Source: Centipeda artemidis DSM 19719 (GTDB lineage: Bacteria > Bacillota > Negativicutes > Selenomonadales > Selenomonadaceae). Taken from it: a DNA stretch of 64,000 bases. The stretch's first letter is position 1, and every line of letters begins with the position of its first letter. This document shows positions 18,022-54,860 of the stretch, piece by piece. Below the pieces are notes generated by a model. It searched no databases and had not been told where the DNA came from. It saw nothing but the letters and a program-made list of their open reading frames with translations. Position numbers and translations under genes: made by a program. The DNA lies in contig NZ_AUFU01000010.1 of assembly GCF_000426665.1 (NCBI RefSeq), forward strand, positions 1-64,000, in the 5' to 3' direction.

Positions 18022-18076
18022 AAAAACCGGGCTGCCGTACTTGCATATAAAATGTAAGTACGGCAGCCCGGTTTTT
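18022..18076 (+). terminator. Long intrinsic terminator after the aldo/keto reductase
   Basis: A perfect or near-perfect 25-bp stem with ends AAAAACCGGG (from 18022) and CCCGGTTTTT (to 18076) encloses a loop of about five bases near 18047-18051. The A/T symmetry makes it work on both strands. Confidence 0.92.
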
Positions 18077-18252: not shown

Positions 18253-18870
18253 ATGATTGAGATCCGATTCGAGGGAGTTGGTCAGGTATTTGACGGTCGA
18301 CAGGTATTAGGCAATCTGACCTGCGTCGTTCGCGGCGGGCAGATCACAGCGGTTGCGGGAGCGAACGGCAGCGGGAAATCGACGCTGCTTCGTCTCGCGG
18401 CACGGCTCATGCTCCCGACGTCCGGGACGGTGACAACGCTCCGTGACGGCGTGGCGGTGCGCGGGGCGGCGTACCGCGCGATGCTCGGCATGGCAACGCC
18501 GGAGATGGAACTCTACACGCGTCTCACGGTGCGGGAGAATCTTTCGTTCCTGCTCGGGGTGCGCGGCGTGCCACATGAAGAAGAGGTATTACACGAGCTC
18601 TTGGAGCGTGTCGGGCTTTCCCCGGACATTTTGCCGCGCACGGCGGGGCAGCTCTCGACGGGGATGCGCCAGCGTGTGCGGCTCGCCGTACTCTTCGGCA
18701 GTGACGCCGCGGTGTGGCTGCTTGATGAGCCGGGGCTCGCGCTCGACGACGCGGGACGCGCACTGCTCGGCGCCGAGGTACGGCGGGCAACGGAGCGCGG
18801 ACGGCTCGTTCTCTGGGCGACGAATGACCGCGAGGAGAAGGAGGCAGCAGATGCGTGCATCGAGCTTTGA
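18253..18870 (+). CDS. ccmA: Haem exporter ATP-binding protein CcmA
   Basis: CcmA is the ATPase of the CcmABC complex, which releases holo-CcmE during cytochrome c maturation. Walker A is GANGSGKST (residues 36-44), the ABC signature is LSTGMRQRVRLA (about 137) and Walker B is VWLLDEPG. At 205 residues it is the compact CcmA length. GGAAGGAATAG precedes ATG 18253. It overlaps ccmB by 20 bases and is the first gene of ccmABCEF-nrfHA. Confidence 0.93.
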   Translation: MIEIRFEGVGQVFDGRQVLGNLTCVVRGGQITAVAGANGSGKSTLLRLAARLMLPTSGTVTTLRDGVAVRGAAYRAMLGMATPEMELYTRLTVRENLSFLLGVRGVPHEEEVLHELLERVGLSPDILPRTAGQLSTGMRQRVRLAVLFGSDAAVWLLDEPGLALDDAGRALLGAEVRRATERGRLVLWATNDREEKEAADACIEL

Positions 18871-19507
18871 TGCGGCGTGCCGCGTCGCCTATAAGGAACT
18901 CCTCGACGGTGTGCGCCACCGCGCCGGCTATGTGACGATGGGGATGTTCGCGCTGACCGTGATTGCGTTCATGAGTATGTCGCTTGCGGGGGATATGCCG
19001 GATGCGCGGCAGGCGGCGACGCTCTACTGGATCGTGCTCTTCTTCGCGGCGACACTGCAGGGGGAACGGCTCTTTGCGGAGGAAGCGGCGGCGGGAACGC
19101 TGCTCTTCCTGCGGATCTACGTTCCGGCACAGGCGGTGCTGTTTGGAAAGATGGCGGCGCATCTTATCACGCTGCTCGTTCTATCTGTCCTTGTGATGCC
19201 GCTGGTCATTGTTCTGATGGACGCGATGTTCATGCTCGATGCAGCGTTTCTCGTTGTTCTCATTCTCGCACTTTGGGGGATGGCGGCGGCGGATACATTG
19301 CTTGCGGCAGTCGCGTCGTCTGCCAGCGTACGCGGAGGACTCGTCCCCGTGCTGCTGCTGCCGTCGATGCTGCCGATCCTCCTGCCAGCGATTGCGGTCA
19401 CGGCGGGATCGACTGAGACATCGCTGTTCGGCGGGATTTTACTTTATGATTTGGCGCTTACGGTAGGGGCGTCGATCCTGTTTGATGCTCTGTGGATCGA
19501 GTCGTGA
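18851..19507 (+). CDS. ccmB: Haem exporter permease CcmB
   Basis: CcmB is the membrane partner of CcmA. I set the start at ATG 18851 inside the ccmA 3' end because this gives the conserved cytoplasmic N-terminus (AYKELLDGVRHRAGY) and a 218-residue protein, the usual CcmB size; the frame is open much farther upstream only as overlap with ccmA. Six membrane helices can be counted, the first around GMFALTVIAFMSMSLAG. The family element EEAAAGTLLFLRIY (family E-x-x-x-G-T-L-E-x-L) follows the second helix. Confidence 0.9.
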   Translation: MRASSFDAACRVAYKELLDGVRHRAGYVTMGMFALTVIAFMSMSLAGDMPDARQAATLYWIVLFFAATLQGERLFAEEAAAGTLLFLRIYVPAQAVLFGKMAAHLITLLVLSVLVMPLVIVLMDAMFMLDAAFLVVLILALWGMAAADTLLAAVASSASVRGGLVPVLLLPSMLPILLPAIAVTAGSTETSLFGGILLYDLALTVGASILFDALWIES

Positions 19508-19524
19508 GGAAGGAGGAGAACCGT

Positions 19525-20136
19525 ATGTTGCTCGGCGCAATCGGTGTTTTGACACTCGCGGCGCTTTACACGATATTTTTTGTCGTTCCTCCTGCCGAGG
19601 GGCTCGGAGAATATGTGCGCATCGCGTTCTTTCACATTCCCGTGGCGTGGGTCTCGGTCATCGCGTTCTTTTACGCGGCGTATCGCGGCGGTCGCTATCT
19701 GCGGACACGCGATCTCGCGCACGATGCGGCGAGCGCACGCTCGGCGGTGCTTGGTCTCGTCTTTACGCTGCTCGCGACGGGGAGCGGAGCGATTTTTTCA
19801 AAACTTACATGGGGGGCATATTGGAACTGGGATCCGCGGCAGACAACCATCTTTGTCCTGCTCCTCATCTACGGCGCGTATGCGACGCTGCGCATGACCA
19901 TGCGCGATGAGCGCGCACGGGCGTCCGCGTCGGCGGTCTATGCACTCTTTTCCTTTATCTCCGTTCCGTTCCTCGTCTTTATCCTGCCGCGCATGTTCTT
20001 CTCGCTGCATCCGTCGCCCGTCATCAACGGCGCGGGACGGCTTGATATGGATACCGTCATGCTGGGGACGCTCTTGCTCTCCCTGCTCGACGCAACCCTC
20101 GTTTACGTTTGGCTGATGAAACGGAGGCTCACATGA
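19525..20136 (+). CDS. ccmC: Haem-handling membrane protein CcmC
   Basis: CcmC presents haem to CcmE through its periplasmic WWD domain. The start 19525 follows AAGGAGGAG (19509-19517). Six transmembrane helices are predicted. The tryptophan-rich WWD motif is here as TWGAYWNWDPRQT, and the two haem-ligand histidines are in FFHIPVAW and SLHPSPVI. The 203-residue length is normal for a short CcmC. It overlaps ccmE by four bases, leaving no room for ccmD. Confidence 0.95.
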   Translation: MLLGAIGVLTLAALYTIFFVVPPAEGLGEYVRIAFFHIPVAWVSVIAFFYAAYRGGRYLRTRDLAHDAASARSAVLGLVFTLLATGSGAIFSKLTWGAYWNWDPRQTTIFVLLLIYGAYATLRMTMRDERARASASAVYALFSFISVPFLVFILPRMFFSLHPSPVINGAGRLDMDTVMLGTLLLSLLDATLVYVWLMKRRLT

Positions 20137-20510
20137 AACGCACCTATCTCTTTATCGGATTAATTCTTGCTTTTATCGGATATGCGGGCTATTTCTTCGC
20201 GGACTCCGTGACCCCCTATGTCGGTATCGCGCAGGCGCGGGCGGCAACGCGCAGCGTGCAGGTCAAGGGGCTGCCGGATAAATCGGTTGCGGCACATATG
20301 GAGGATGACGCGTTTGTGTTCTCCATCGCCGACGAGGATACCGGCGAGACGATGCTCGTTCGCTACAAGGGCATCAAGCCCGACACTTTCGACGAGGCGT
20401 ATCATATCGTCGCCGTCGGCAAATATGCGGACGGTACGTTCAACGCGGATAAACTTCTCATCAAATGCCCGTCGAAGTACGAGTCGCAGAAGGGCAAGGT
20501 CACCGTATGA
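20133..20510 (+). CDS. ccmE: Haem chaperone CcmE, CxxxY variant
   Basis: CcmE is a periplasmic OB-fold protein, anchored by one N-terminal helix (residues 4-22), that carries haem covalently. In classical CcmE the haem is bound by a His in H-x-x-x-Y; here the motif is C112-PSK-Y116, so the ligand is Cys. The Cys form is known from Desulfovibrio-type 'System I*' operons that lack CcmH. Other conserved parts are VRYKGIKPDTFDEAYHIVAVG. The 125-residue protein starts at ATG 20133 after ACGGAGG. It is coupled to ccmC and ccmF by ATGA overlaps. Confidence 0.92.
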   Translation: MKRTYLFIGLILAFIGYAGYFFADSVTPYVGIAQARAATRSVQVKGLPDKSVAAHMEDDAFVFSIADEDTGETMLVRYKGIKPDTFDEAYHIVAVGKYADGTFNADKLLIKCPSKYESQKGKVTV

Positions 20511-22633
20511 TCGGAACCGTCTTTCTCGGCGCTGTTCTCCTTTTCTCCCTCGGCGCTGTGGTCTGCGAGCTGCAGGAGAAACGGAGCGAGGGCGATATTT
20601 GTGCCTATCTGGCGGGGGTCGCGTCGCTCGGGGCGGCGGCAGCGCTCTTTGCCGCGATCCTCACGGATGACTTCGGCTATGCCTACGTCGTTAGCTACTC
20701 GTCTATCGAGCTGCCGCTGCTCTATAAAATCTCGGCCTTTTGGGCTGGACAGCAGGGATCGTTTCTCCTATGGCTTGTCATTCATGCGCTCGTCGGCGCA
20801 CTGCTTGTGCGCCGCAGTGCGATGGGGCGGGCGGGACGCATCGTCTATCAGTTGCTCACGGCGCTCCTTGTGTTCCTCGTTTTGATCAAAAGCCCCTTCG
20901 CGTATGCGGAGACGATCGTGCCGGACGGCAACGGGATGAACCCGCTGCTGCAAGACCCATGGATGGCAGTGCACCCGCCGATCATCTTCATGGGCTACGC
21001 GCTGCTCGCCGTGCCGTTTGCCTACGCGCTTGAGAGCATGATCGCGGCGCCTTTAGACGGCAAGTTCCTTGCGCCGATGCGCCGCTGGGCGCTCGTTGCA
21101 TGGGCGTTCCTCGGCGCAGGCATCTTCATCGGCGGCTACTGGGCGTACAAGGTGCTCGGCTGGGGCGGCTACTGGGGCTGGGATCCCGTGGAGAACTCCT
21201 CCCTCGTGCCGTGGCTGCTCTCCTGTGTACTCATTCATCTGATCTCTGTGGCCCGTGCGCGGCGGGGCGCATACTACCTCGTCCACCTCGCGGCGATATT
21301 CTCCTACGCGTTCGTGCTCTACGGCACGTTCCTCACGCGCAGCGGCATCCTCGGCGATTTCTCCGTGCACTCGTTTGCAGGCTCTGACATCGGGTTCTAC
21401 ATCGCCATTGCCAACGGGCTTGTGCTCCTCGCGGGACTGGGGATTCTCGCCGCGCGGATTGAGCGCCTGCCGAAGGGCGATGTCTACGGAACGCACAAGA
21501 GCCGTGCGTTCTTCACACTCCTCGGGATGCTGCTCATCGTATTCATCACGGCGGTCGTATTCTTCGGCATGTCGATGCCGCTCATCTCGGGACTGATCGG
21601 CGAGAGCGCGGCGGTGGATACGAGCTACTATGTGCGGACGTCGCTGCCGATCGCGGTCGTGCTCGCGCTGCTCATGGGATTTGGGGTTCTGCTTCCTCAT
21701 GCGGAGGGGCGTGTCGTTCGACCCGTTTGGATCTTCGGCGTTACCGTGCTCGGCGGCATTGCCGCGGGACTTGCGGGCGTTACGGAGATTGCGCCGATCT
21801 TCCTCGCCGCGTTCGGGAGCTTTGCCGCGGCGGCGGCGGTTGCGGCGTTTCTAAGTCGCCGACTCGGAGGCGGCGGTCTCCTCGCCCATGCGGGGGCGGG
21901 GCTTGCGCTCCTCGCCTTCGTCCTTTCGGGCAGCGGCAGTCAAACGACGACCGTGACGCTTACGCCCGATGAGCCGCAGGAACTCTACGGACACACAGTC
22001 GTCTATCGCGGGCAGGCGTTCGCGGAGAGCGGCAAGGAAAAGTCCTACCGCTATGAGGTGGACGGCGCGGCGTGCGAAGCGGTGACAAAGCTCCGTGCGA
22101 ACGGCGAGGATGCGGCGAGAGAGCCGGCGATCGCGCGGACGCTCCTCGGTGACATCTATATCGCGCCGACGCCGACCTCGGCGGAGCGCGGCGAGATGAT
22201 CCTGCACCACAATCAGACCGCGATGGGTGTGGACGACTATGCCTTCCGATTTGAGAACATCGCCTATGAGCCGCAGGGCGGCGGCAAGACGCTCGTCACG
22301 GCGGATGTCGCCGTGACGGACGGCGAGACGGTCGAGACGGCGCAGCCGAGCATCCTTGCCACGGAGCGCGGCGGCACCTCGCAGCCCGTGGAGGTCATGG
22401 GCGGAAAGTTCCGGATCCGCCTCACGGGGGTCTCGGGAGACGATCGTGATATCCGTCTCGAACTCCTGCCCTCTGTGGATGAGGAAGCGGCGCTGCCGGT
22501 TGCCGCATCGGTCAGCACGAAGCCCGGAATATCGCTCCTCTGGCTCGCCTGCGTTCTCGTCGTTCTCGGCGGACTTACAGCGGCACGGCGGATGCCGCAG
22601 GGCAAAGGAGGTGGATCAGAACGTGAGTTTTAG
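20507..22633 (+). CDS. ccmF: Haem lyase/holocytochrome c synthetase CcmF
   Basis: CcmF transfers haem from CcmE to apocytochrome c. The start at 20507 overlaps the ccmE stop. The WWD motif WGGYWGWDPVENSSLVPWL is at about residues 219-237, and flanking histidines occur (VHPPIIFMGY; HLISVARARRG). About 14-15 membrane helices are present plus a periplasmic soluble domain at about 490-670 (TPDEPQELYGHTVVYRGQ). The length, 708 residues, is in the normal range. No ccmG, ccmH or ccmI follows; nrfH starts 27 bases downstream. Confidence 0.95.
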   Translation: MIGTVFLGAVLLFSLGAVVCELQEKRSEGDICAYLAGVASLGAAAALFAAILTDDFGYAYVVSYSSIELPLLYKISAFWAGQQGSFLLWLVIHALVGALLVRRSAMGRAGRIVYQLLTALLVFLVLIKSPFAYAETIVPDGNGMNPLLQDPWMAVHPPIIFMGYALLAVPFAYALESMIAAPLDGKFLAPMRRWALVAWAFLGAGIFIGGYWAYKVLGWGGYWGWDPVENSSLVPWLLSCVLIHLISVARARRGAYYLVHLAAIFSYAFVLYGTFLTRSGILGDFSVHSFAGSDIGFYIAIANGLVLLAGLGILAARIERLPKGDVYGTHKSRAFFTLLGMLLIVFITAVVFFGMSMPLISGLIGESAAVDTSYYVRTSLPIAVVLALLMGFGVLLPHAEGRVVRPVWIFGVTVLGGIAAGLAGVTEIAPIFLAAFGSFAAAAAVAAFLSRRLGGGGLLAHAGAGLALLAFVLSGSGSQTTTVTLTPDEPQELYGHTVVYRGQAFAESGKEKSYRYEVDGAACEAVTKLRANGEDAAREPAIARTLLGDIYIAPTPTSAERGEMILHHNQTAMGVDDYAFRFENIAYEPQGGGKTLVTADVAVTDGETVETAQPSILATERGGTSQPVEVMGGKFRIRLTGVSGDDRDIRLELLPSVDEEAALPVAASVSTKPGISLLWLACVLVVLGGLTAARRMPQGKGGGSEREF

Positions 22634-22660
22634 GAATATTTCAGAAGGGAGGAAGGAAAC

Positions 22661-23143
22661 ATGAATCTAAAGCAGCTTTTGGAACGGCACACGCTGCGCT
22701 GCATCGGCGGCGGATTTGTACTGGCGCTCATTGTCGTTGCCGGCGGGATGCTCATGGACAAAGCGTCGGCATCGCCCGCATTCTGCGGCATGTGTCATGC
22801 GATGCAGCATGAGTCCGCGACGCACGCCGTGTCCTCGCACCAAAAGATTGCCTGTGTGGAGTGTCATCTGCCGCACGACAACGTCGTCGTCTACTACTTT
22901 GAAAAAGGAAAGACGGGGATGCACGACACGCTCCATCAGGTGCTCGACGATTATCCCGTCCACATTAAGATCTCGGATCACGGTCGGGACATCGTGAATG
23001 ACAACTGCCTGCGCTGCCATACCGCAACCATGAGCGCCGTATGTGTGGACAAGGGCAAAGACGGCAGTGCGACCTGTACGAAGTGTCACAGCAGCATTGC
23101 GCATGGTTCCAATCCTTTGGAAGGAGGGATAAGAGTTGAGTAG
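22661..23143 (+). CDS. nrfH: Cytochrome c nitrite reductase small subunit NrfH
   Basis: NrfH is a membrane-anchored NapC/NirT-family tetraheme cytochrome that passes electrons from menaquinol to NrfA. One N-terminal membrane helix (about residues 14-32) is followed by four haem sites: C42GMCH (with Met48 close by, as in the unusual Met-ligated first haem of Desulfovibrio NrfH), C65VECH, C116LRCH and C139TKCH. It has 160 residues. The ribosome site is AGAAGGGAGGAAGG. Its stop lies inside the start region of nrfA. Confidence 0.95.
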   Translation: MNLKQLLERHTLRCIGGGFVLALIVVAGGMLMDKASASPAFCGMCHAMQHESATHAVSSHQKIACVECHLPHDNVVVYYFEKGKTGMHDTLHQVLDDYPVHIKISDHGRDIVNDNCLRCHTATMSAVCVDKGKDGSATCTKCHSSIAHGSNPLEGGIRVE

Positions 23144-24440
23144 CAAACAGAAAATCATCGCGGGGGTTGCCGGCGTCTGCGCCCTGTTCTTTGGATTCGT
23201 TGCCGTTCGTATCGGCGCGCAGCCGAACGATGCGAGTATGAAACTCGTCCAAATTTCCAAGGAGAACAACGCGCAGATTGGCAAAGAGGCGTACAAGGAT
23301 GCCTACCCGCTGCAGTACAACTCGTTCATGAAGAACAACATCGAGTCTCCGTCGCCCACAGGATACGGCGGCAGCATGGAAGGGAACTCGCATCTCGAAC
23401 ATCAGCCCGAGATGCTGGAGAATTTTAAGGGATATAAATTCTCCATCCAGTATGACGACGACCGCGGTCATACCTATGCGGGCTACGACCTCCTGCATAC
23501 GAAGCGTCTGCCGGGGCAGAAGGGCAGCTGTATCGTCTGCAAGGGCTCCTATATGTATGACGTCTGCTTCAAGGAGGACGGCTGGGCGTTTGCCTCCAAG
23601 CCGTTCATGGAAGTTGCGGAGAATATCTCGGACGATCAGTGGTTCGGATGCTCGACCTGCCACGATCCTGACACGATGGAGCTGCGCGTCTATCAGCAGG
23701 GATTCATCGAGTCCATGGCACGGCGCGGCATCGACGTGAACGCCGCGAGCCACAACGAGATGCGCGCCTACGTTTGCGGACAGTGCCATACGGAGTATTA
23801 CTTCACGGCTGAGGACGGCCGCGTGGCGCATCCCTATGAGAACGGTTTTGATGCCGAGGACGAGTACCGCTACTATCAGTCGGGGCAAGCGGGCGGATTC
23901 AAGGGCGACTGGCTGCATCCGGACTCCAAGACGATGATGCTTAAGGCGCAGCATCCGGACTTCGAGTCGTGGGCAACGAGCGTTCATGCGGACGCGGGCG
24001 TCACTTGCGTGGACTGCCATATGCCGTATATGCGTGACGACGGCAAGAAGTACACTTCGCACTGGATGACGAGTCCGCTCAAGACGACGAAGGAGTCCTG
24101 TCTCAAGTGTCACGACGAGAGCGAAGAGACGCTCGTCGCGCGTGTCAAGACCATTCACGACAACACGTTCCGGCTCCAGCGCATCGCGGGACAGACCGTC
24201 GCAAAGGCACATCTCACGATCAAAGCCGCGATGGAAGCGGGTGTTCCCGACGCTGCGCTTGAGGATGCACGGGCAAAAGTACGCGAAGCACAGTGGTACT
24301 GGGATTGGGTCGCAGCAGAGAACGGTGTCGGCTTCCACAACCCGGACAAGATGACGCGTACCGCAGGTCTCGCCATCGATCTCGCCCATCAGGCGATCGA
24401 GTCGGCAGAAGCCGCACGCTACGGATTCCAACCACTCTGA
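23136..24440 (+). CDS. nrfA: Ammonia-forming cytochrome c nitrite reductase NrfA
   Basis: NrfA reduces nitrite to ammonium with six electrons in the periplasm. It has the five expected haem sites: the catalytic C132IVCK with lysine as ligand, then C172STCH, C214GQCH, C291VDCH and C322LKCH. The TTG start (23136) is supported by AAGGAGGG at 23121-23128. An uncleaved or cleaved signal segment covers residues 6-27. The 434 residues are a little short for the family. No dedicated CxxCK haem lyase (NrfEFG) is adjacent, so the upstream CcmF would have to serve this site. Confidence 0.96.
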   Translation: MSSKQKIIAGVAGVCALFFGFVAVRIGAQPNDASMKLVQISKENNAQIGKEAYKDAYPLQYNSFMKNNIESPSPTGYGGSMEGNSHLEHQPEMLENFKGYKFSIQYDDDRGHTYAGYDLLHTKRLPGQKGSCIVCKGSYMYDVCFKEDGWAFASKPFMEVAENISDDQWFGCSTCHDPDTMELRVYQQGFIESMARRGIDVNAASHNEMRAYVCGQCHTEYYFTAEDGRVAHPYENGFDAEDEYRYYQSGQAGGFKGDWLHPDSKTMMLKAQHPDFESWATSVHADAGVTCVDCHMPYMRDDGKKYTSHWMTSPLKTTKESCLKCHDESEETLVARVKTIHDNTFRLQRIAGQTVAKAHLTIKAAMEAGVPDAALEDARAKVREAQWYWDWVAAENGVGFHNPDKMTRTAGLAIDLAHQAIESAEAARYGFQPL

Positions 24441-24452
24441 GAGCAGTTTAAG

Positions 24453-24492
24453 GCACAAAAAAAGAATCGCTTCGGCGATTCTTTTTTTGTGC
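24453..24492. terminator. Bidirectional terminator between nrfA and the TauE-like gene
   Basis: An 18-bp stem beginning GCACAAAAAAAGAATCGC (24453-24470) and mirrored at 24475-24492 has a TTCG tetraloop. A runs on one side and T runs on the other let it serve the two convergent genes. Confidence 0.93.
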
Positions 24493-24508: not shown

Positions 24509-25306
24509 TCAAATCATGCCGCTCATCCAAATGAGCCGCAGCCCGAGCGCGAACATTGCGGCGGCAAGCAGGGTGAGAATCATCTTGGACTTTGCCTTCC
24601 GCGAGAGCGCCGCGCCAATCTGCGCACCGACTGCCGCACCGATCGAGATGCATATGGCGGGCGTCCAAATTACATGACCGAGCCACACATGACTGATCAC
24701 ACCGAATGCAGCGGAGGCGGCAAGGACGAAATGCGAAGTTGCCGTCGCCGCGTGCACGGGGAAATTCAGCAGATAGACCATCAGCGGCACATGAATCACG
24801 CCGCCGCCGATGCCAAAAATACTTGATAGGAATCCAACGCCAAGACTTGAACCGATACCAAGCGAGCGATTGAAGGTAAAATTGGCAGGCAGCTCATGCA
24901 CATCCACATGCGTCTTGTGCGTCGCATTCCAATACATCATGCACGCCATGATGAGCAGGAACGCTCCGAATGAAACGTAGAGCATCGGCCCCGTAAAATC
25001 GTCCACAATGTACGAGCCGAGGAAGGCACCGGGGAGTGTTGCAAGAGCAAACGGCACGGCGGCAGGGAAGTAGACCCTCTTTTGCCGTATATACGCTGCC
25101 GTTCCTGAGAGCGCATTCGCAAGGACGATCACGAGCGACGTTCCTGTAATTTGTGCTGCCGTGTGAAAATACGGATAGATCCCCCCGTCCGACAGGAAAA
25201 AGATGAAAATCGGCACACAGATGAGGCCCCCGCCGATGCCGACAAGCGTCCCGAACGTCCCGACAAATACCCCGAGGATAAGAAAGAGCAGAATATCAAT
25301 CCCCAT
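24509..25306 (-). CDS. TauE/SafE-family sulfite/anion exporter
   Basis: A polytopic inner-membrane permease of the TSUP family, which exports sulfite, sulfoacetate and related organic anions. The start at 25306 is chosen because GGGAGGG lies seven bases before it; an ATG seven codons earlier contains the ribosome site itself. At 265 residues it has about eight helices and the two repeated glycine-rich family motifs GTLVGIGGGLICVPIFIF and SIFGIGGGVIHVPLMVYLL. The substrate cannot be inferred. It is convergent with nrfA and divergent from cstA. Confidence 0.9.
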   Translation of the reverse strand: MGIDILLFLILGVFVGTFGTLVGIGGGLICVPIFIFFLSDGGIYPYFHTAAQITGTSLVIVLANALSGTAAYIRQKRVYFPAAVPFALATLPGAFLGSYIVDDFTGPMLYVSFGAFLLIMACMMYWNATHKTHVDVHELPANFTFNRSLGIGSSLGVGFLSSIFGIGGGVIHVPLMVYLLNFPVHAATATSHFVLAASAAFGVISHVWLGHVIWTPAICISIGAAVGAQIGAALSRKAKSKMILTLLAAAMFALGLRLIWMSGMI

Positions 25307-25362
25307 AAGAAAACCCTCCCAAAACATTGATGCTATTGACCATTATAGCACATAGGAATCGT

Positions 25363-25540: not shown

Positions 25541-26977
25541 ATGGTTACATTTCTTGGCGCGCTCGCAACACTCATCATCGGCTATCTTGTCTACGGCGCA
25601 CTCGTAGACAAAGTATTCGGCCGTACGGGCGAGACCGCACCTGCCGTTCGGTTGGAGGACGGCGTGGACTACATTCCACTCCCAACGTGGAAGGTATTCC
25701 TCATTCAGCTGCTCAACATCGCAGGACTGGGCCCCATCTTCGGCGCACTCGCGGGCGCACTGTGGGGACCGAGCGTCTATCTGTGGATCGTCTTCGGTAC
25801 GATTTTTGCGGGCGGCGTCCACGACTTCCTCTCCGGTATGATATCGTTCCGTGAGGACGGTAAGAGCATCTCGGAGATTGTCGGGAAAAATTTGGGGCAC
25901 ATCATGCTCCAGGTTATGCGCGTATTCTCCATCGTCCTGCTCGTCCTCGTCGGCGTCGTCTTTATGACCGGCCCCGCGATGCTCCTTGCAAAACTTACGG
26001 GGCTTGAGATGCTCCTGTGGCTCGCGGTTATTTTCATCTACTACACGCTCGCGACGCTTCTGCCGATCGATCAGATCATCGCGCGTTTTTATCCGCTCTT
26101 CGGCATCTGTTTGATTGTCATGGCGCTCGGCATCATGGGCGGAATGCTCTTCGGCGTCGGCGGACATACCATGCCCGAGATGACGCTTGAGAACCTCCAT
26201 CCGAAAAATCTGCCCATCTGGCCGCTGCTCTTCATTACCGTTGCATGCGGCGCAGTCTCCGGATTCCATGCCACACAGTCTCCGATCATGGCGCGCTGCC
26301 TGAAGGATGAAAAGATGGGGCGTCCCGTATTCTACGGCGCGATGGTCGCCGAGGGTATCATCGCGCTTTGTTGGGCGGCCGCAGGCGTCACCTTCTACGA
26401 TAGTACAGCGGGACTTGGTGCCGCACTCAAAGAGGCAGGACCCGGCGGCGTTGTCTATGACATCTGCGTCGGATTCATGGGCGCGATCGGATTCGGCGGC
26501 GTGAGCATCGGTGCGATCCTTGCCATGCTTGGCGTCATCGCGTGTCCCATCACCTCGGGCGACACCGCGTTCCGCTCCGCGCGGCTGACCCTCGCCGACT
26601 GGTTGGATATCCCGCAAAAAGAGGCGTCGAAGCGTCTCATGATCGCCGTTCCCATGCTCGGCATCGGTCTTATCCTCTCGCAGATGGATTTTTCCATCAT
26701 TTGGAGATACTTCTCGTGGGCAAACCAGACCCTCGCCATGATTACGCTTTGGACGGGCACGGCATATCTCTATCTGCACAAACCCGGCTCCTACGCCTAC
26801 ATCATCGCCATGCTGCCCGCTATCTTCATGTCAGCGGTCACGACGACGTACATCCTGCAGGCGCCCGAGGGCTTTGGACTGCCGACCAATATCACCTATC
26901 CTGCCGGCATCGGCTTTGCCGTACTCTTTACCGCGCTCTTCTTCCGTGCATTTATCCTGCGCAAGAGAACTGCATGA
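25541..26977 (+). CDS. cstA: CstA/BtsT-family carbon starvation transporter
   Basis: Members of this family import pyruvate or peptides. The 478-residue protein is the short type, against about 700 in E. coli CstA. Roughly 12-13 membrane helices are visible. Family motifs include NIAGLGPIFGALAGALWGPSVYLW (here split at about residues 52-70), GTIFAGGVHDFLSGMIS and CGAVSGFHATQSPIMARC. The start codon ATG 25541 has only a weak ribosome site (AAGAAGTGA). A hairpin terminator follows at 27000. The substrate is not known. Confidence 0.92.
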   Translation: MVTFLGALATLIIGYLVYGALVDKVFGRTGETAPAVRLEDGVDYIPLPTWKVFLIQLLNIAGLGPIFGALAGALWGPSVYLWIVFGTIFAGGVHDFLSGMISFREDGKSISEIVGKNLGHIMLQVMRVFSIVLLVLVGVVFMTGPAMLLAKLTGLEMLLWLAVIFIYYTLATLLPIDQIIARFYPLFGICLIVMALGIMGGMLFGVGGHTMPEMTLENLHPKNLPIWPLLFITVACGAVSGFHATQSPIMARCLKDEKMGRPVFYGAMVAEGIIALCWAAAGVTFYDSTAGLGAALKEAGPGGVVYDICVGFMGAIGFGGVSIGAILAMLGVIACPITSGDTAFRSARLTLADWLDIPQKEASKRLMIAVPMLGIGLILSQMDFSIIWRYFSWANQTLAMITLWTGTAYLYLHKPGSYAYIIAMLPAIFMSAVTTTYILQAPEGFGLPTNITYPAGIGFAVLFTALFFRAFILRKRTA

Positions 26978-28698: not shown

Positions 28699-28807
28699 GT
28701 TGAACCGATATGAGGAGCTGCATACGAGGGAACACGGATACTCGTCCTCCTGTATCGGATCAAGATTATTCTTTGATGGCGGGAACATCCCGCAAGGAGG
28801 AATTACC
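28699..28807 (+). promoter_or_regulatory. Structured 5' leader of the first ompM-like gene (candidate RNA switch)
   Basis: TCCTCCT (28745-28751) is complementary to the ribosome site AGGAGGA (28795-28801). Their pairing encloses two hairpins, ATCAAG/CTTTGAT (28759-28764/28771-28777) and GCGGGA/TCCCGC (28779-28784/28788-28793), in a tight three-way junction. Alternatively 28747-28758 pairs with 28705-28717 (12 pairs, one bulged A), freeing the ribosome site. The intervening loop GGAACACGGATA (28729-28740) is closed by CGAG/CTCG. The second porin gene has the same architecture. The pairings are seen in the sequence; the switching is inferred. Confidence 0.6.
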
Positions 28808-30133
28808 ATGAAGAAGACTCTGGCAGCAGCTCTCGCGGCGGCGCTCACGATCGGCGCGGCATCGACCACGTTCGCAGCGGCGAACCCCTTCTCCGACGTG
28901 CCTCGTGATCATTGGGCATACGACGCTGTGACGCAGCTCGCGGCAGACGGCGTTGTCGAGGGCTATGGTGACGGCACGTTCCGCGGTGACCGCAACATCA
29001 CGCGCTACGAGATGGCGCAGATGGTCGCAAAGGCGATGGCGAAGGGCGATATGTCCGCATCGGATCGTGCGCTTGTTGACCGTCTTGCCGCTGAGTTTGC
29101 AGATGAGCTTAACAACCTCGGTGTCCGTGTCTCCAACCTCGAGCGCAACGCGGATATGGTGAAATGGAACGGCAAACTTCGTTACACCTATACCAGCAAT
29201 CGCCACGATGTGACACACAGCAAAGTGAATAATGATGCACTTCTGTTCCGTCTCGAGCCGTCCGCTGAGGTCAACAGCCATTGGCATGTGAAGGCACGTC
29301 TTGATGCGACGACCAACATGAAGAACGATTCCGGGACAAATGGCAGCGATACGGTCACACTGAAGCGTGCTTATGCACAGGGCGACTATACGAACTTCCA
29401 GGTAAAACTCGGTAAGATCGGGCTTTCCTCTCCTGAGAGTAAGGTGCATCCGGGATCCGGCAACCTCCTTACCGATGAAGGCGCAAAATTCTCTGGCGCA
29501 GAGGTTACGTTCGGCAATAAGCTGCAGGCAACCGTACAGGCAGGCCGGTACGCTTTCGGAGGAAATAAGTACAATGGTACCATAAATCCGTTTGCCAGCG
29601 GGGATACCTCGAACTATCAGTCGATCGACCTTAAGTACATGAGCAGTAAGTGGTCGTTTGGTGCCGGTTATTTCCATCTCGGCTCCGAAAACTTCAAAGG
29701 TGCCGTTATACCGGGGCATCCCTATAAAAAAGACGGCAATGATGCTAAGGATGCGAACATTTGGCGCGTCTTTGCCGGGTATCGTTTCGATAAGAATAGT
29801 GCCCTTGGTGGATCCTATGCGAACAACGCAAAGGCGGACAACTTTGACAACGCTTATACGGTCGAGTACGACTATAAGGGAGCAAAGGCTTCCGATAAAG
29901 GGTCATGGGGCGCGTATGTCGCGTACCGTAAACTCGGCGCTTTTGCGGCGATCGCTCCGACGACAGACGGTGCAGGTTACAACCAAAAGGGAATTGAGGT
30001 CGGATTCGACTACGTTCCGTTCAAGAATGTCGTTTTGAAGGCAAAGTACTTCAACGGCAAGGATATGTATGTACCGGCAGGCAGTGACGATAAAGCGCAG
30101 AACCTCTTCGGGCGCGTAGAGTTCCTCTTCTAA
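28808..30133 (+). CDS. ompM: OmpM-like outer-membrane porin with SLH domain (first copy)
   Basis: Negativicute OmpM proteins are trimeric porins whose periplasmic SLH domain binds polyamine-modified peptidoglycan and tethers the outer membrane. The start at 28808 follows AAGGAGGAA and gives a signal peptide (residues 1-24, cleavage near TFAA). The SLH domain (about 26-85) reads NPFSDVPRDHWAYDAV and GYGDGTFRGDRNITRYEMAQMV. A coiled linker ends VSNLERNADMVKW, and a beta-barrel of alternating strands runs to the terminal RVEFLF with C-terminal Phe. 441 residues. It is followed by a terminator and a second, closely related copy. Confidence 0.92.
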   Translation: MKKTLAAALAAALTIGAASTTFAAANPFSDVPRDHWAYDAVTQLAADGVVEGYGDGTFRGDRNITRYEMAQMVAKAMAKGDMSASDRALVDRLAAEFADELNNLGVRVSNLERNADMVKWNGKLRYTYTSNRHDVTHSKVNNDALLFRLEPSAEVNSHWHVKARLDATTNMKNDSGTNGSDTVTLKRAYAQGDYTNFQVKLGKIGLSSPESKVHPGSGNLLTDEGAKFSGAEVTFGNKLQATVQAGRYAFGGNKYNGTINPFASGDTSNYQSIDLKYMSSKWSFGAGYFHLGSENFKGAVIPGHPYKKDGNDAKDANIWRVFAGYRFDKNSALGGSYANNAKADNFDNAYTVEYDYKGAKASDKGSWGAYVAYRKLGAFAAIAPTTDGAGYNQKGIEVGFDYVPFKNVVLKAKYFNGKDMYVPAGSDDKAQNLFGRVEFLF

Positions 30134-30409: not shown

Positions 30410-31702
30410 ATGAAGAAGACTCTGGCAGCAGCTCTCGCGGCAGCGCTCACGATCGGCGCGGCATCGACCACGTTCGCGGCGGCGAACCCCTTCTCCGACG
30501 TGCCCCGTGACCACTGGGCATATGACGCCGTGACGCAGCTCGCAGCGGACGGCGTTGTCGAGGGCTACGGTGACGGTACGTTCCGCGGTGACCGCAACAT
30601 CACGCGCTATGAGATGGCGCAGATGGTTGCAAAGGCAATGGCAAAGGGGGATATGTCCGCATCGGATCGCGCACTCGTCGACCGCCTTGCCGCCGAGTTC
30701 GCAGACGAGCTCAACAACCTCGGCGTTCGCGTCTCCAACCTCGAGCGCAACGCGGATATGGTGAAGTGGACGGGCGAACTGCGTTATCGTTATTGGAGCC
30801 GTCGTAACGACCACAAGAACGACACAAAGGTCGCTCAAAAAGCAAACAAGGATCAGCTCCAGTTGCGCCTCTTCCCGACGGCGGAGATCAACGATCATTG
30901 GCATGTCAAAGCGCGTCTGACGGCTTCGAGTAATATGAAGACGGATGAGAGCGACAATGTCGTCCTTACCTATGCGTATGCGGACGGCGACTACGGCAAG
31001 TTCCATGTCCAGCTCGGTAAGATGCCGGTCTCCTCGAATGCCGATCAGGGGATCGTTATCGATGATTTCTTCTCGGGTGCACAGGTCTCCTATGGTGACA
31101 AGTGGTCTGTACTTGCAGAAGCGGGCCGCTGGAACCTTGACGATGCCAATAAGAATATTGCTGCAGCGACGGACAAAGCCGCCAACTATCAGGGCATCGA
31201 ACTCGGCTACCGCTCCGGCAAGCTCGTGCAGAGCGGCGTCGCCTATCGTCATTTCTCCAGCGAGGCATTCAAGAGCGCAGCCCTTTACAATAAGAACGGC
31301 GCGCCGCAGGACAAGGCCGATATCTGGTCGGTTGGCGCAAAGTACGCATTTGATAAGAATACTGCACTCAGCGCTGCCTATGCAAACAACACGAAGGCGG
31401 ACGAACTGAAGAAGGGTATGAGCTTCCAGTTCGACTACAAAGGCGCAGACAAGAGCAACATGGGGTCGTGGGGCGCTTATGTGGCGTATCGCCATATCGG
31501 TGCGAACGTAGGCCTTGCACCGACCTTCTCGACAGATCAGCTAACCTCTGTGACCACGAACGGTGCAAAGGGAATTGATCTCGGTCTCGGCTATATTCCG
31601 TTCAAGAATGTTCTGATGCAGGCACAGTATTTCAACGGCAAAGAGCTTAAGACGGACAACAAGGTTCAGACGCTCTACGGTCGCGTCAGCTTCTTCTTCT
31701 AA
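30410..31702 (+). CDS. ompM: OmpM-like outer-membrane porin with SLH domain (second copy)
   Basis: A paralogue of the preceding gene. The signal peptide, SLH domain and linker (first about 120 residues) are almost identical, with few DNA differences. The barrel is clearly different in loops and many strands (430 against 441 residues), though it keeps the final aromatic Phe (RVSFFF) needed for outer-membrane assembly. A conserved core, GSWGAYVAYR, lies near residue 355 in both. The pattern suggests tandem duplication with barrel divergence and continued exchange of the 5' part. Confidence 0.92.
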   Translation: MKKTLAAALAAALTIGAASTTFAAANPFSDVPRDHWAYDAVTQLAADGVVEGYGDGTFRGDRNITRYEMAQMVAKAMAKGDMSASDRALVDRLAAEFADELNNLGVRVSNLERNADMVKWTGELRYRYWSRRNDHKNDTKVAQKANKDQLQLRLFPTAEINDHWHVKARLTASSNMKTDESDNVVLTYAYADGDYGKFHVQLGKMPVSSNADQGIVIDDFFSGAQVSYGDKWSVLAEAGRWNLDDANKNIAAATDKAANYQGIELGYRSGKLVQSGVAYRHFSSEAFKSAALYNKNGAPQDKADIWSVGAKYAFDKNTALSAAYANNTKADELKKGMSFQFDYKGADKSNMGSWGAYVAYRHIGANVGLAPTFSTDQLTSVTTNGAKGIDLGLGYIPFKNVLMQAQYFNGKELKTDNKVQTLYGRVSFFF

Positions 31703-46898: not shown

Positions 46899-46929
46899 AC
46901 GAAAGTCTCGTCTCGAAAGGAGCATCCAT

Positions 46930-48084
46930 ATGAATATCAAGGGAATGCGTCTCGTCTGCGCACTTGGACTCGTCTTTTGTCTCGGCGGCTGCGGCGCGCC
47001 GGGTGCGTCGTCGAAGGCATCTGCGGAGATGCCGCGCGGCATCGTACAGAAAAATCAGCCGAAGGACGGGCAGGCGGAGATCTATCTCGCGGGCGGATGC
47101 TTTTGGGGGACGGAGCTCTATACGAGTCTCGTGTACGGTGTCGTCTCCGCCGAGAGCGGCTATGCGAACGGCAAGACCGTGAACCCGACCTATGAGGAGG
47201 TATGCAGCGGCAGCGGACATGCGGAGACGGTGCATGTCGTCTACGATCCGCGCATTGTATCGCTCGACGAGCTGCTGAATGTGTTCTATGACTCGATTGA
47301 CCCGACGACGCAGGATCGGCAGGGCAACGACGTCGGGCGGCAGTACCGTTCGGGGATTTACTATGTGCCGAACGCGGACGGGAGCGAGACGGCGGACGAG
47401 CGCACGATCCGCGCATCGCTGGACGCGCTGCAAAAACGCATCGGCAAGCCGATCGCCGTTGAGATGGGCCCGATTGTGAATTTTTACCGCGCGGAGGAGG
47501 GGCATCAGGAATACCTCACAAAGAACCCGAACGGCTACTGCCACATCTCGCCCGCAAAGATCGCGGAGATGCGTGAAAAGCACGCCGCCGCGGAGAAAGC
47601 CGCCGCAGAGAAGCAGACGGCACAGCGTCCGAGCCGCACCTATGAAAAGCCGTCGGATGCGGAGCTGAAGGAAAAGCTGACGGATATGCAGTACGCGGTG
47701 ACGCAGGAAAAGGCGACCGAGCCGCCGTTCCGCAACGAATACGATCACGAGTTCCGCGCGGGCATCTACTGCGACATCACGACGGGCGAGCCGCTCTTTG
47801 TCTCGACGGACAAATATGACTCGGGCTGCGGATGGCCGGCGTTCTCGCGCCCCATCGACGATGCGCTCATCGCGGAGCATGAGGATCGCTCGTTCGGTAT
47901 GGTGCGCACGGAGGTCACGGCGGCGGGCAGCGGCGCGCATCTCGGGCATGTCTTTGACGACGGCCCGCAGGCGAGCGGCGGCCTGCGCTACTGCATCAAC
48001 AGCGCTTCCCTGCGCTTTATCCCGAAGGAGGACATGGAGGCGGAGGGCTACGGTGACTATCTCTATCTTCTTGAAAATCAATAA
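46930..48084 (+). CDS. msrAB: Bifunctional methionine sulfoxide reductase MsrA-MsrB lipoprotein
   Basis: The enzyme repairs both S- and R-methionine sulfoxides of envelope proteins. A lipoprotein signal with lipobox LGGC (Cys21) places it on the outside of the inner membrane or on the outer membrane. MsrA (about 50-205) has catalytic Cys57 in GGCFWGTE. MsrB (about 250-380) has [10 protein letters not shown] and the C-terminal [11 protein letters not shown] catalytic Cys. The usual MsrB zinc CxxC pairs are absent. The start ATG 46930 follows AAAGGAGC. 384 residues. No thioredoxin-like CcdA domain is fused, so the reductant is external. Confidence 0.94.
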
Positions 48085-52570: not shown

Positions 52571-54319
52571 ATGGACAGCGAAAAGAACGGGACGCTCAGC
52601 CGTAGGAATTTTCTCAAGGGAAGCGCGCTCGCCTTTGGCGGCTTCGTCGCCGCGCCCGCCCTGCTCGCGGGGTGCGGGGAGAATCCGAACGATCGATTGA
52701 TCCCGCCTTCGCCTCCGGCGGAGCCCCCTCCGGCGCCCGCATGGCTCGGCACTGCGCCGGAGATCCCGGACGGCCGGATCGCGGAGGAACGCGCCGCGGA
52801 CGTTGTGATCGTCGGTGCGGGGCTCGCGGGACTCACTACCGCGCGCGCCGCATCCGAACACGGCGCGTCCGTGCTCGTCATGGAGCGGGCGAGCACATGG
52901 CAGTGCCGCAGCGGGCAGTACGGCACGATCGGCAACCGCTATCAGCGGGAACTCGGCATCACGTTCGACAAGAACGAAGCGATTCTCGAGAACATGAAGC
53001 AGATGGGCTATCGCTCGGATCAGCGCATGTGGAAATACTGGGCGGATCACAGCGGCGAGGATTTTGACTGGATGCTTGACCTTGCGCCCGCCGTCCATCT
53101 GATGAAGGAAACGGACACGGAGCTTGACCGCACGAAGATCAATCTCATGATGATGCACTATCCGCTGCCCGAGGGATACAACCGTGCAGAGGAGAACAGC
53201 CCGACCTATCCGACGGTCATGACGCTCCTGCCGAGTCAGGAACCGCTCCTCACGCTCGTCTATGAGAAATGCCTTGCGCAGGGGTGCAAATTCATCTTTG
53301 CGACGCGCGCGCAAAAACTCATCCGTGAGGACGCGGACGGGCGCGTTACGGCGGTCGTCGGCGAGGACATTCACGGAAAATTTGTCAAATGCACGGCGCG
53401 CAAGGCGGTCGTCCTCGCGACGGGAGACTACGGCAACAACAAGGAGATGATGTCGTATTTTGTGCCGTGGGCGGTCGATTATCTCAATGTGTTTCCGAAC
53501 CGCGACGCGTGGGACAGCCCCACGAATACGGGCGACGGGCACAAAATGGCGGCGTGGGTCGGCGGAAAAATCGAGGACGGACCTCACGCGCCCATGATTC
53601 ACACGCTCGGCGGGCCGCTTGGCGTGGACGCCTACCTGCTGCTGAACGACGACGGGAAGCGGTTCGTCAACGAGGACATCGGCGGACAGCAGCTCTCCTG
53701 CGCCATCTATCGGCAGCGCGGCGATTATGCGTGGCAGATATTCGATGCGAATTTTCCGAAGCAGCTCGGCGCGATGGGCGTATCGCACGGCAGCGTGAAC
53801 CACTGCGTCTCCGCTGCGGAGAATCCGAAGCTCCCGCCCGACTGCCAATGGGCGATCGGGCGCACCTCGTATACCTCTGTGGAGGATGTCGAGAAAACGC
53901 CCGGGATTGTGCGCGCGGATACGATCGAGGAGCTTGCCGCCGCGCTTGCGCCCGAACGCCCCGCCGTGCAGCGCACGATCCTCTCGGAGATCGCGCGCTA
54001 CAACGCGCTCGCTCATGCGCATCTCGATACGGACTTCGGCAAGGCGTCAAAACGGCTCTTCCCGATTGAAAAGCCGCCGTTCTACGCGGGCAAGATGCTC
54101 GGCGGCGCGCTCCTCGTCAACATGGGCGGACTGACCGTGAACCCCGAGGACGGCAACGTACTCGACAGGGGCTATCATGGCATCCCGGGGCTGTACGCCG
54201 TCGGCAACACGCAGGGCGGGCGGTTCGTCGGGGACTATCCCGTCGTGACGGCGGGTGTCAGTCACGCCTTTGCCCTCGTGTACGGGCGTCTCGTCGGCAA
54301 TGTCGTCGGAAAACTTTGA
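52571..54319 (+). CDS. Tat-exported FAD-dependent reductase (fumarate/urocanate reductase-like)
   Basis: A periplasmic flavoprotein of the fumarate reductase flavoprotein family (FAD_binding_2), which includes fumarate, urocanate, methacrylate and related enoate reductases. A twin-arginine signal is present (R11RNFLKG), followed by a lipobox-like LLAGC35. The FAD loop is VGAGLAGLTTA at 81-91. The C-terminal GGLTVNPEDGNVL and LYAVGNTQGGRFVGDYP contain cofactor contacts. It lacks N-terminal haem sites. 582 residues. AGAAAGGAGC precedes the ATG. A pentaheme cytochrome follows, so the electron donor is a separate subunit. The acceptor is unknown. Confidence 0.88.
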   Translation: MDSEKNGTLSRRNFLKGSALAFGGFVAAPALLAGCGENPNDRLIPPSPPAEPPPAPAWLGTAPEIPDGRIAEERAADVVIVGAGLAGLTTARAASEHGASVLVMERASTWQCRSGQYGTIGNRYQRELGITFDKNEAILENMKQMGYRSDQRMWKYWADHSGEDFDWMLDLAPAVHLMKETDTELDRTKINLMMMHYPLPEGYNRAEENSPTYPTVMTLLPSQEPLLTLVYEKCLAQGCKFIFATRAQKLIREDADGRVTAVVGEDIHGKFVKCTARKAVVLATGDYGNNKEMMSYFVPWAVDYLNVFPNRDAWDSPTNTGDGHKMAAWVGGKIEDGPHAPMIHTLGGPLGVDAYLLLNDDGKRFVNEDIGGQQLSCAIYRQRGDYAWQIFDANFPKQLGAMGVSHGSVNHCVSAAENPKLPPDCQWAIGRTSYTSVEDVEKTPGIVRADTIEELAAALAPERPAVQRTILSEIARYNALAHAHLDTDFGKASKRLFPIEKPPFYAGKMLGGALLVNMGGLTVNPEDGNVLDRGYHGIPGLYAVGNTQGGRFVGDYPVVTAGVSHAFALVYGRLVGNVVGKL

Positions 54320-54329
54320 GGAGGGGAGC

Positions 54330-54860
54330 ATGATGCGATTCTTATCCAAACTCAAACGGCCGCGCGTCCTCTTGATCCTCGTCATCTGCGCCGCAGCAGC
54401 AGGATTTGGCAGTCTCGCGCTGCTCTCGGCGATGAGCGCAAAACCCGCCTTTTGCGCGGTCTGCCACAATATGCAGCCCGAATACGACAGCTATACGCAC
54501 GACGGCTATCTCGCGAAGGCACATGCGGACATGGGCGTGACCTGCCACGACTGCCATGAGCCGACGCTCGCGCAGCAGATGAAGGAAGGATGGCTCTTCG
54601 TCACGGGCAATTACGAGAACCCCATGCCGAAGTACGGCTTCAAGAACGAGCTGTGTCTCTCCTGTCATGATTTCGAAGCGGTGAAGCGCGCGACCGCGCA
54701 CTACGGCAAGGAGAACCCGCACGATCCCGTCCATCTCGCGGGGAACGAGAATCCCCAGCAATGCATGGACTGCCACAGTATGCATCACAAGCAGTCGGCG
54801 AAGAAATGCAGCGCCTGCCATCCCGTGACTTGGAAGCTCTACGCGAGCTGGGAACAGTGA
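54330..54860 (+). CDS. NapC/NirT-type membrane-anchored pentahaem cytochrome c
   Basis: The protein probably takes electrons from menaquinol for the flavoprotein encoded just upstream. It has one N-terminal membrane helix (about residues 12-34) and five CxxCH sites: C42AVCH, C72HDCH, C109LSCH, C145MDCH and C160SACH. NapC/NrfH relatives commonly have four. ATG 54330 (or 54333) follows GAGGAGGGG. It has 176 residues and begins 11 bases after the flavoprotein stop. Its maturation would depend on the ccm genes at 18-22 kb. Confidence 0.9.
   Translation: MMRFLSKLKRPRVLLILVICAAAAGFGSLALLSAMSAKPAFCAVCHNMQPEYDSYTHDGYLAKAHADMGVTCHDCHEPTLAQQMKEGWLFVTGNYENPMPKYGFKNELCLSCHDFEAVKRATAHYGKENPHDPVHLAGNENPQQCMDCHSMHHKQSAKKCSACHPVTWKLYASWEQ

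Follow-up and report, generated by a model that had tools for sequence, protein, structure and literature searches.

The window (the whole 64-kb stretch of DNA that was analysed) is part of contig C9 in a genome of 2.35 Mb with a listed completeness of 99.86%. Positions 18253-24440 are occupied by a tight run of genes on one strand, ccmA-B-C-E-F-nrfH-nrfA, in which the joints from ccmA to nrfA measure -20, +17, -4, -4, +27 and -8 bases. The features of the run and its borders are as follows.

18026..18072, + strand: terminator-like hairpin with a 20-pair stem, closing the gene upstream of ccmA (such hairpins are no more numerous in this region than expected by chance)
18253..18870, + strand: ccmA, ABC ATPase (PF00005, 86.7 bits; best NCBIfam match TIGR01189 ccmA, 115.6 bits, below the 131.6 cut-off)
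18851..19507, + strand: ccmB, permease (PF03379, 55.3 bits; 20-base overlap with ccmA)
19525..20136, + strand: ccmC, haem handling (PF01578, 76.2 bits; TIGR01191 ccmC, 96.4 bits, below cut-off; WNWD motif at residue 100)
20133..20510, + strand: ccmE, Cys-type haem chaperone of 125 aa (PF03100, 65.2 bits; resembles the solved CcmE 2kct)
20507..22633, + strand: ccmF, haem lyase of 708 aa (PF01578, 103.3 bits; alignment to the solved CcmF 6zmq)
22661..23143, + strand: nrfH, membrane quinol dehydrogenase subunit with four CxxCH (PF03264; TIGR03153, 106.7 bits, below the 134.2 cut-off)
23136..24440, + strand: nrfA, pentahaem ammonifying nitrite reductase (nitrite to ammonia) with a TTG start (PF02335, 359.5 bits; CIVCK and four CxxCH; best solved relatives the NrfA entries 2vr0, 2j7a and 1oah)
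23529..23543, + strand: CxxCK codons of haem site 1 in nrfA, read from the sequence (Lys codon 23541-23543)
24457..24489, no strand assigned: hairpin behind nrfA, a terminator by eye, absent from the list of the hairpin scan

The initial annotation had described one run of reduced ccm genes together with nrfHA, and both the coordinates and the Pfam matches bear this out, as do positions 22634-22660 for the 27 bases that it placed between ccmF and nrfH; its start of the operon at 20133 has to be corrected, because the run begins earlier, with ccmA, and includes ccmB and ccmC. All six joints were checked, and none leaves space for ccmD, ccmG, ccmH or ccmI inside the run, in agreement with the earlier statement that these genes are missing from the operon. 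Each Ccm and Nrf protein of the operon scored above its curated Pfam cut-off, while the scores below the NCBIfam equivalog cut-offs mark them as divergent members. A promoter scan of the operon region gave no signal above chance, and ccmABCEF-nrfHA are presumably co-transcribed. Among CcmF proteins with a named source, Selenomonas infelix (77% identity) and Centipeda periodontii (76%) have the closest, in a ranking from which the window's own record was possibly excluded; the ccm-nrf operons of these two species have the order and motifs of the host and differ by sequence divergence only, with CLQCK where the host has CIVCK. Behind nrfA and outside the operon lie a TauE/SafE-type exporter (window 24509-25327) and a CstA-like carbon starvation protein (25541-26977, by eye), and positions 28700-30133 and 30410-31702 hold tandem SLH-porin-type outer-membrane proteins (by eye) with near-identical N-terminal parts.

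The sole cysteine of CcmE is C112, in the context KCPSKYES, and the solved CcmE 2kct carries KCP at the matching position, so that the replacement of HxxxY by C112-PSK-Y had been read correctly. Of the 39 CcmE sampled in the family, 38 read CPSKY and one reads CPTKY, all being of the Cys type. System I*, with a Cys-type CcmE (mostly CPSKY) and without CcmH, is known from archaea, delta-proteobacteria, chloroflexi and firmicutes, and roughly one in three System I* bacteria does have CcmH, according to the accessible part of PMC3601427. Since System I* has been described already, the core of the present finding is of a known kind: it shares the Cys-type CcmE with CPSKY, the CcmABCEF proteins and the lack of CcmH with System I* as it occurs in Desulfovibrio desulfuricans and further bacteria (Allen 2006 and Goddard 2010, through the accessible parts of PMC3601427 and PMC9084895). 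The likeness to a Desulfovibrio-like Cys-type system without CcmH, proposed in the initial annotation, therefore gave the correct name, but it does not extend to CcmD, which other System I* bacteria carry; in Desulfovibrio ccmD is present and needed (PMC9084895, accessible part), whereas in the host ccmC and ccmE abut and a CcmD is not found at the locus, as in the rest of the family sample. Haem transfer would run through CcmABC, which would hand the haem to the Cys-type chaperone CcmE, and CcmE would hold it on C112, where covalent attachment is predicted.

Distribution in the host family was counted over 189 genomes with weak matches included (one CcmE, and the NrfA of genomes G042 and G048, were below cut-off), and sequences were sampled as 40 stretches from 39 family genomes. 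CcmE was present in 117 genomes and NrfA in 119; the two occurred together in 111/189, CcmE alone in 6, NrfA alone in 8 and neither in 64. The Fisher p of 5e-34 for this co-occurrence is descriptive only, because related genomes are not independent. As the Pfam cut-offs are passed and CcmE and NrfA are found together in so many genomes, the operon is not a product of chance, and the arrangement is common in the family and no local oddity. Of the 33 sampled stretches with CcmF and NrfH on one strand, 26 have NrfH behind CcmF, 15-659 nt away. At other loci nrfHA lies on the opposite side of ccm, or ccmF and ccmABCE are on separate contigs (L008/L149, L142, L143, L147, L148 and L156); this varied placement of nrfHA and ccmF in relatives indicates that the operon was repeatedly reshuffled with its gene set unchanged. 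The ccm operon of G042 and G048 lies near a CxxCH-only cytochrome of 176-182 aa, not near NrfHA. At L127, L128 and L016 a CxxCH-only cytochrome stands beside the ccm operon in place of NrfHA, and these loci lend themselves naturally to comparisons of CcmF specificity.

A third cytochrome, 51-56% identical to the ccm-side cytochrome of G042 and G048, is encoded in the window.

~54330..54857, + strand: NapC/NirT-type cytochrome with five CxxCH, a likely further client (PF03264, PF14537; gene start approximate)

It follows an FAD flavoprotein with a twin-arginine-like signal (by eye) within window positions 52571-54857, and the two are probably a periplasmic flavin reductase and its quinol-oxidising partner. 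A Ccm system dedicated to NrfHA alone is ruled out by this CxxCH-only cytochrome. A genome-wide scan for the CxxCH pattern gave 91 + 88 matches vs. 77 + 82 in the reversed control and, with the places listed for the first 100 matches only, was dropped.

The initial annotation had suggested that the genome be searched for ccmH, nrfE/ccsA and thioredoxin-like partners. The last of these searches led to a ResA-like lipoprotein and CcdA on contig C1, listed here with a lipoprotein of the window.

C1, 292140-292778: ccdA, single copy in the genome (profile search)
G000:C1, 292140-293228 (L114 8105-9415): ccdA together with the adjoining ResA-like thioredoxin lipoprotein
Window, 46924-48084: secreted fused MsrA-MsrB lipoprotein (PF01625 and PF01641; lipobox by eye)

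The ResA-like lipoprotein lies just upstream of CcdA and carries the thioredoxin motif WCPPC. Among solved proteins it is matched best by StoA and ResA, and it also matches 2yp6, 4hqz and 4hqs (listed as thioredoxin family proteins), which we take to be pneumococcal Etrx proteins. The MsrAB lipoprotein depends on a source of thiols outside the cytoplasm, of which the ResA-like/CcdA pair is an example.

CcdA was detected in 30 of the 189 family genomes, including all 14 of the host genus, and is rare elsewhere in the family. It is present in 25 and missing in 92 of the 117 genomes with CcmE, and also missing in 32 of the 55 genomes with CcmE and NrfA that are listed at 98% or more completeness; in draft genomes part of the absence may be incompleteness. 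Since most CcmE-bearing relatives lack CcdA, reduction by CcdA is not a general requirement. The route of thiol reduction had been called open in the initial annotation, which stands in that no general route through CcdA exists in the family, but the ResA-like lipoprotein with CcdA does provide a candidate in this genome. DsbA (PF01323) had no match in the host genome and matched in 52 of the 189 family genomes; of eight loci retrieved, seven were inspected, and six of these sequences begin cytoplasmic-looking, with no signal peptide, while one was translated in a wrong frame. The cytoplasmic-looking matches are presumably of the FrnE type. With no DsbA match, and so perhaps no periplasmic disulfide maker, the apocytochromes would be reduced by default: their thiols would stay reduced mainly since an anaerobe of this kind would form hardly any disulfides in the periplasm, or none, and the ResA-like lipoprotein and CcdA may assist the reduction here, although the family would not require them.

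The pair may alternatively serve MsrAB and not the cytochromes, to which we give only slightly less than an even chance. It would then be uninformative on the apocytochrome thiols, and this role is compatible with reduction by default. Consistent with MsrAB as the client are the presence of the secreted MsrAB in the window, the matches of the ResA-like protein to 2yp6, 4hqz and 4hqs, the family distribution of CcdA, which does not follow that of the Ccm system, and the MsrAB-CcdA pathways published for Streptococcus and Fusobacterium, in so far as those reports were accessible. However, MsrAB and the pair are not adjacent, being on contigs C9 and C1, respectively, and a single pair could serve both MsrAB and the cytochromes.

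CcmD binds CcmC only and aids the release of holo-CcmE, as described in the accessible parts of PMC9616876, PMC11868835 and PMC12077264. To judge from the part of PMC9084895 at hand, it is universally present in bacteria, and CcmABCEF without CcmD, CcmH and CcmI is Archaea-specific, with archaeal lipids suggested as the reason. The ccmC-ccmE joint was compared with an outgroup of 64 non-family loci, of which 43 with adjacent ccmC and ccmE were kept and 21, non-adjacent or missing one of the genes, were dropped. In the 43 loci, all from other bacterial phyla and with a Cys-type system, the gap is 91-989 nt long and encodes a small one-helix protein in 42 cases; in the 43rd, where bases are masked, the protein was seen by profile only. 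These gap proteins match CcmD_alt, PF20077 (seven tested) and TIGR04391 (six tested), partly below cut-off. In the family, ccmC and ccmE abut at -16 to +14 nt in 37/37 stretches, with start codons extrapolated by alignment.

A CcmD profile built from the 42 outgroup proteins recovered 42/42 in five-fold cross-validation, the lowest at 27.2 bits, and found three further matches of 57-60 bits in the remaining outgroup loci, the masked gap included. Across 625,511 bases from 56 family loci, with some genomes represented twice, its best match reached 9.6 bits and lay outside the operon, and the best in the 64-kb window was 3.0 bits. Because the profile recovers CcmD in the outgroup but not in the family, the protein carried by all comparable outgroup loci is missing at the locus in the family sample. 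The Pfam profile PF04995 (CcmD) also gave no match over the 189 genomes, but this zero was discounted because its control was positive in 2 of 14 genomes only and the CcmD of the System I* type is not recognised by it. Few columns of CcmB, CcmC and CcmE differ between family and outgroup; the clearest lies in the last helix of CcmC, where 41/44 outgroup sequences have Phe and most of the 47 family sequences have Ala, Val or Met, with no apparent tie to CcmD. What marks the variant is thus that, throughout the family sample, a bacterial ccm locus lacks CcmD, which suggests that the Ccm system may work independently of CcmD. The absence of ccmD had been listed in the initial annotation and holds at the locus; its weight was missed there, as the comparable Cys-type outgroup loci all carry CcmD. 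A literature search, judged by titles and the starts of abstracts, found no paper describing CcmD loss in the host family and none linking nrfA, Selenomonas and cytochrome c maturation.

The system could also be an ordinary System I*, in which CcmD was relocated elsewhere in the genome and the ResA-like/CcdA pair reduces the thiols. The kinship of the ResA-like protein with StoA and ResA and the presence of CcdA throughout the host genus would fit such a system, and CcdA is commoner with CcmE (25/117) than without (5/72; Fisher p 0.008, uncorrected for kinship). However, given the abutting genes in every sampled family stretch, relocation would need to be family-wide, no CcmD was found in the 56 family neighbourhoods or the 64-kb window, and most CcmE-bearing relatives are without CcdA; we therefore regard this explanation as unlikely. 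For a Ccm system that lacks CcmD, the streamlined CcmABCEF of Methanosarcina acetivorans offers a parallel, with the same protein set, no CcmH, no CcmD (in the host, at the locus) and a CxxxY CcmE, and archaeal CcmABCEF functions without CcmD, CcmH and CcmI (PMC9084895, accessible part). The archaeon differs in having CcmF1 and CcmF2 in place of the single CcmF of the host (same source). The host, unlike M. acetivorans, is a diderm bacterium, and its ccm genes share an operon with nitrite reductase.

The searches for ccmH and nrfE/ccsA found neither. CcmH gave no match in the host genome or in any of the 189 family genomes by profile search (control positive in E. coli and three others), and Cytochrom_C_asm (PF01578) matched only CcmC and CcmF in the host genome, where, at its listed completeness, no second lyase of the NrfE/CcsA type was detected. 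In the family, PF01578 was found in 121 of 189 genomes, with two matches in 107, one in 11 and three in 3. CcmF has a WWD motif and no CxxC of its own, and we take its histidines 156, 244, 288 and 461 to be the haem ligands; His 156, 244 and 288 align with His of the solved 6zmq, while 461 falls in an uncertain part of the alignment. The CxxCK site expected in NrfA is present as CIVCK at residue 132, beside the four CxxCH sites CSTCH, CGQCH, CVDCH and CLKCH, and one CxxCK with four CxxCH was found in 33/33 NrfA of the family sample.

As neither CcmH nor a second lyase was found in the genome, CcmF is the sole lyase detected for both CxxCK and CxxCH sites. Relatives with CxxCK clients and relatives with CxxCH-only clients share one CcmF lineage, so this single lineage would have to serve both motifs, as the gene content suggests. 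That one CcmF perhaps serves CxxCH and CxxCK had been put forward in the initial annotation, and it gains support from the lack of a second lyase in the genome, but the idea is not new: in Shewanella oneidensis, which is likewise without NrfEFG, CcmF is required for NrfA and appears to serve both motifs, on the evidence of the accessible part of PMC6976685. S. oneidensis differs in that CcmH and CcmI are present, CcmI being essential for NrfA (same source), whereas the host is without CcmH; systems with a dedicated CxxCK lyase (NrfEFG, NrfI) differ in having the second CcmF/CcsA-type protein that the host lacks. It is highly improbable that CcmF acts on CxxCH only, with haem 1 of NrfA empty or attached by an unrecognised enzyme: special CxxCK lyases are needed in E. 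coli and Wolinella (accessible parts of PMC12285233 and PMC3601427), but an unused CxxCK would decay and yet is kept in every sampled family NrfA, a third Cytochrom_C_asm match is missing in 118 of the 121 genomes having the domain, and the Shewanella precedent also argues against it. The available text of PMC12285233 assigns NrfHA maturation to System II, to which the host family looks like an exception.

From the observed gene content, motifs, profile-based absences and distribution, the locus is probably a maximally reduced System I* operon, CcmABCEF with NrfHA, without CcmH and, on the locus evidence, without CcmD, archaea-like, and with thiols reduced mainly by default. The observation made in the initial annotation is thereby confirmed and its interpretation partly supported. 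Whether the whole family uses CcmABCEF alone, with neither CcmD nor CcmD_alt nor CcmH, mostly without CcdA, and with a single CcmF acting on both CxxCH and CxxCK, we judge to be evenly balanced. If so, a diderm bacterium whose membranes are ordinary would have evolved on its own the set regarded as Archaea-specific, and archaeal lipids would become a less likely explanation for the loss of CcmD. The family gene content contradicts the assignment of NrfHA to System II (PMC12285233) and, at the locus, the universal presence of CcmD and the restriction of CcmABCEF to Archaea (PMC9084895), as these are worded in the accessible parts of the two papers. The operon holds the smallest bacterial Ccm set in this comparison, with a natural substrate in the same operon, and together with the relatives that have no CxxCK client (G042 and G048) it forms a test bed for the needs for CcmD, CcmH and a thiol reductase and for the acceptance of CxxCK by the lyase.
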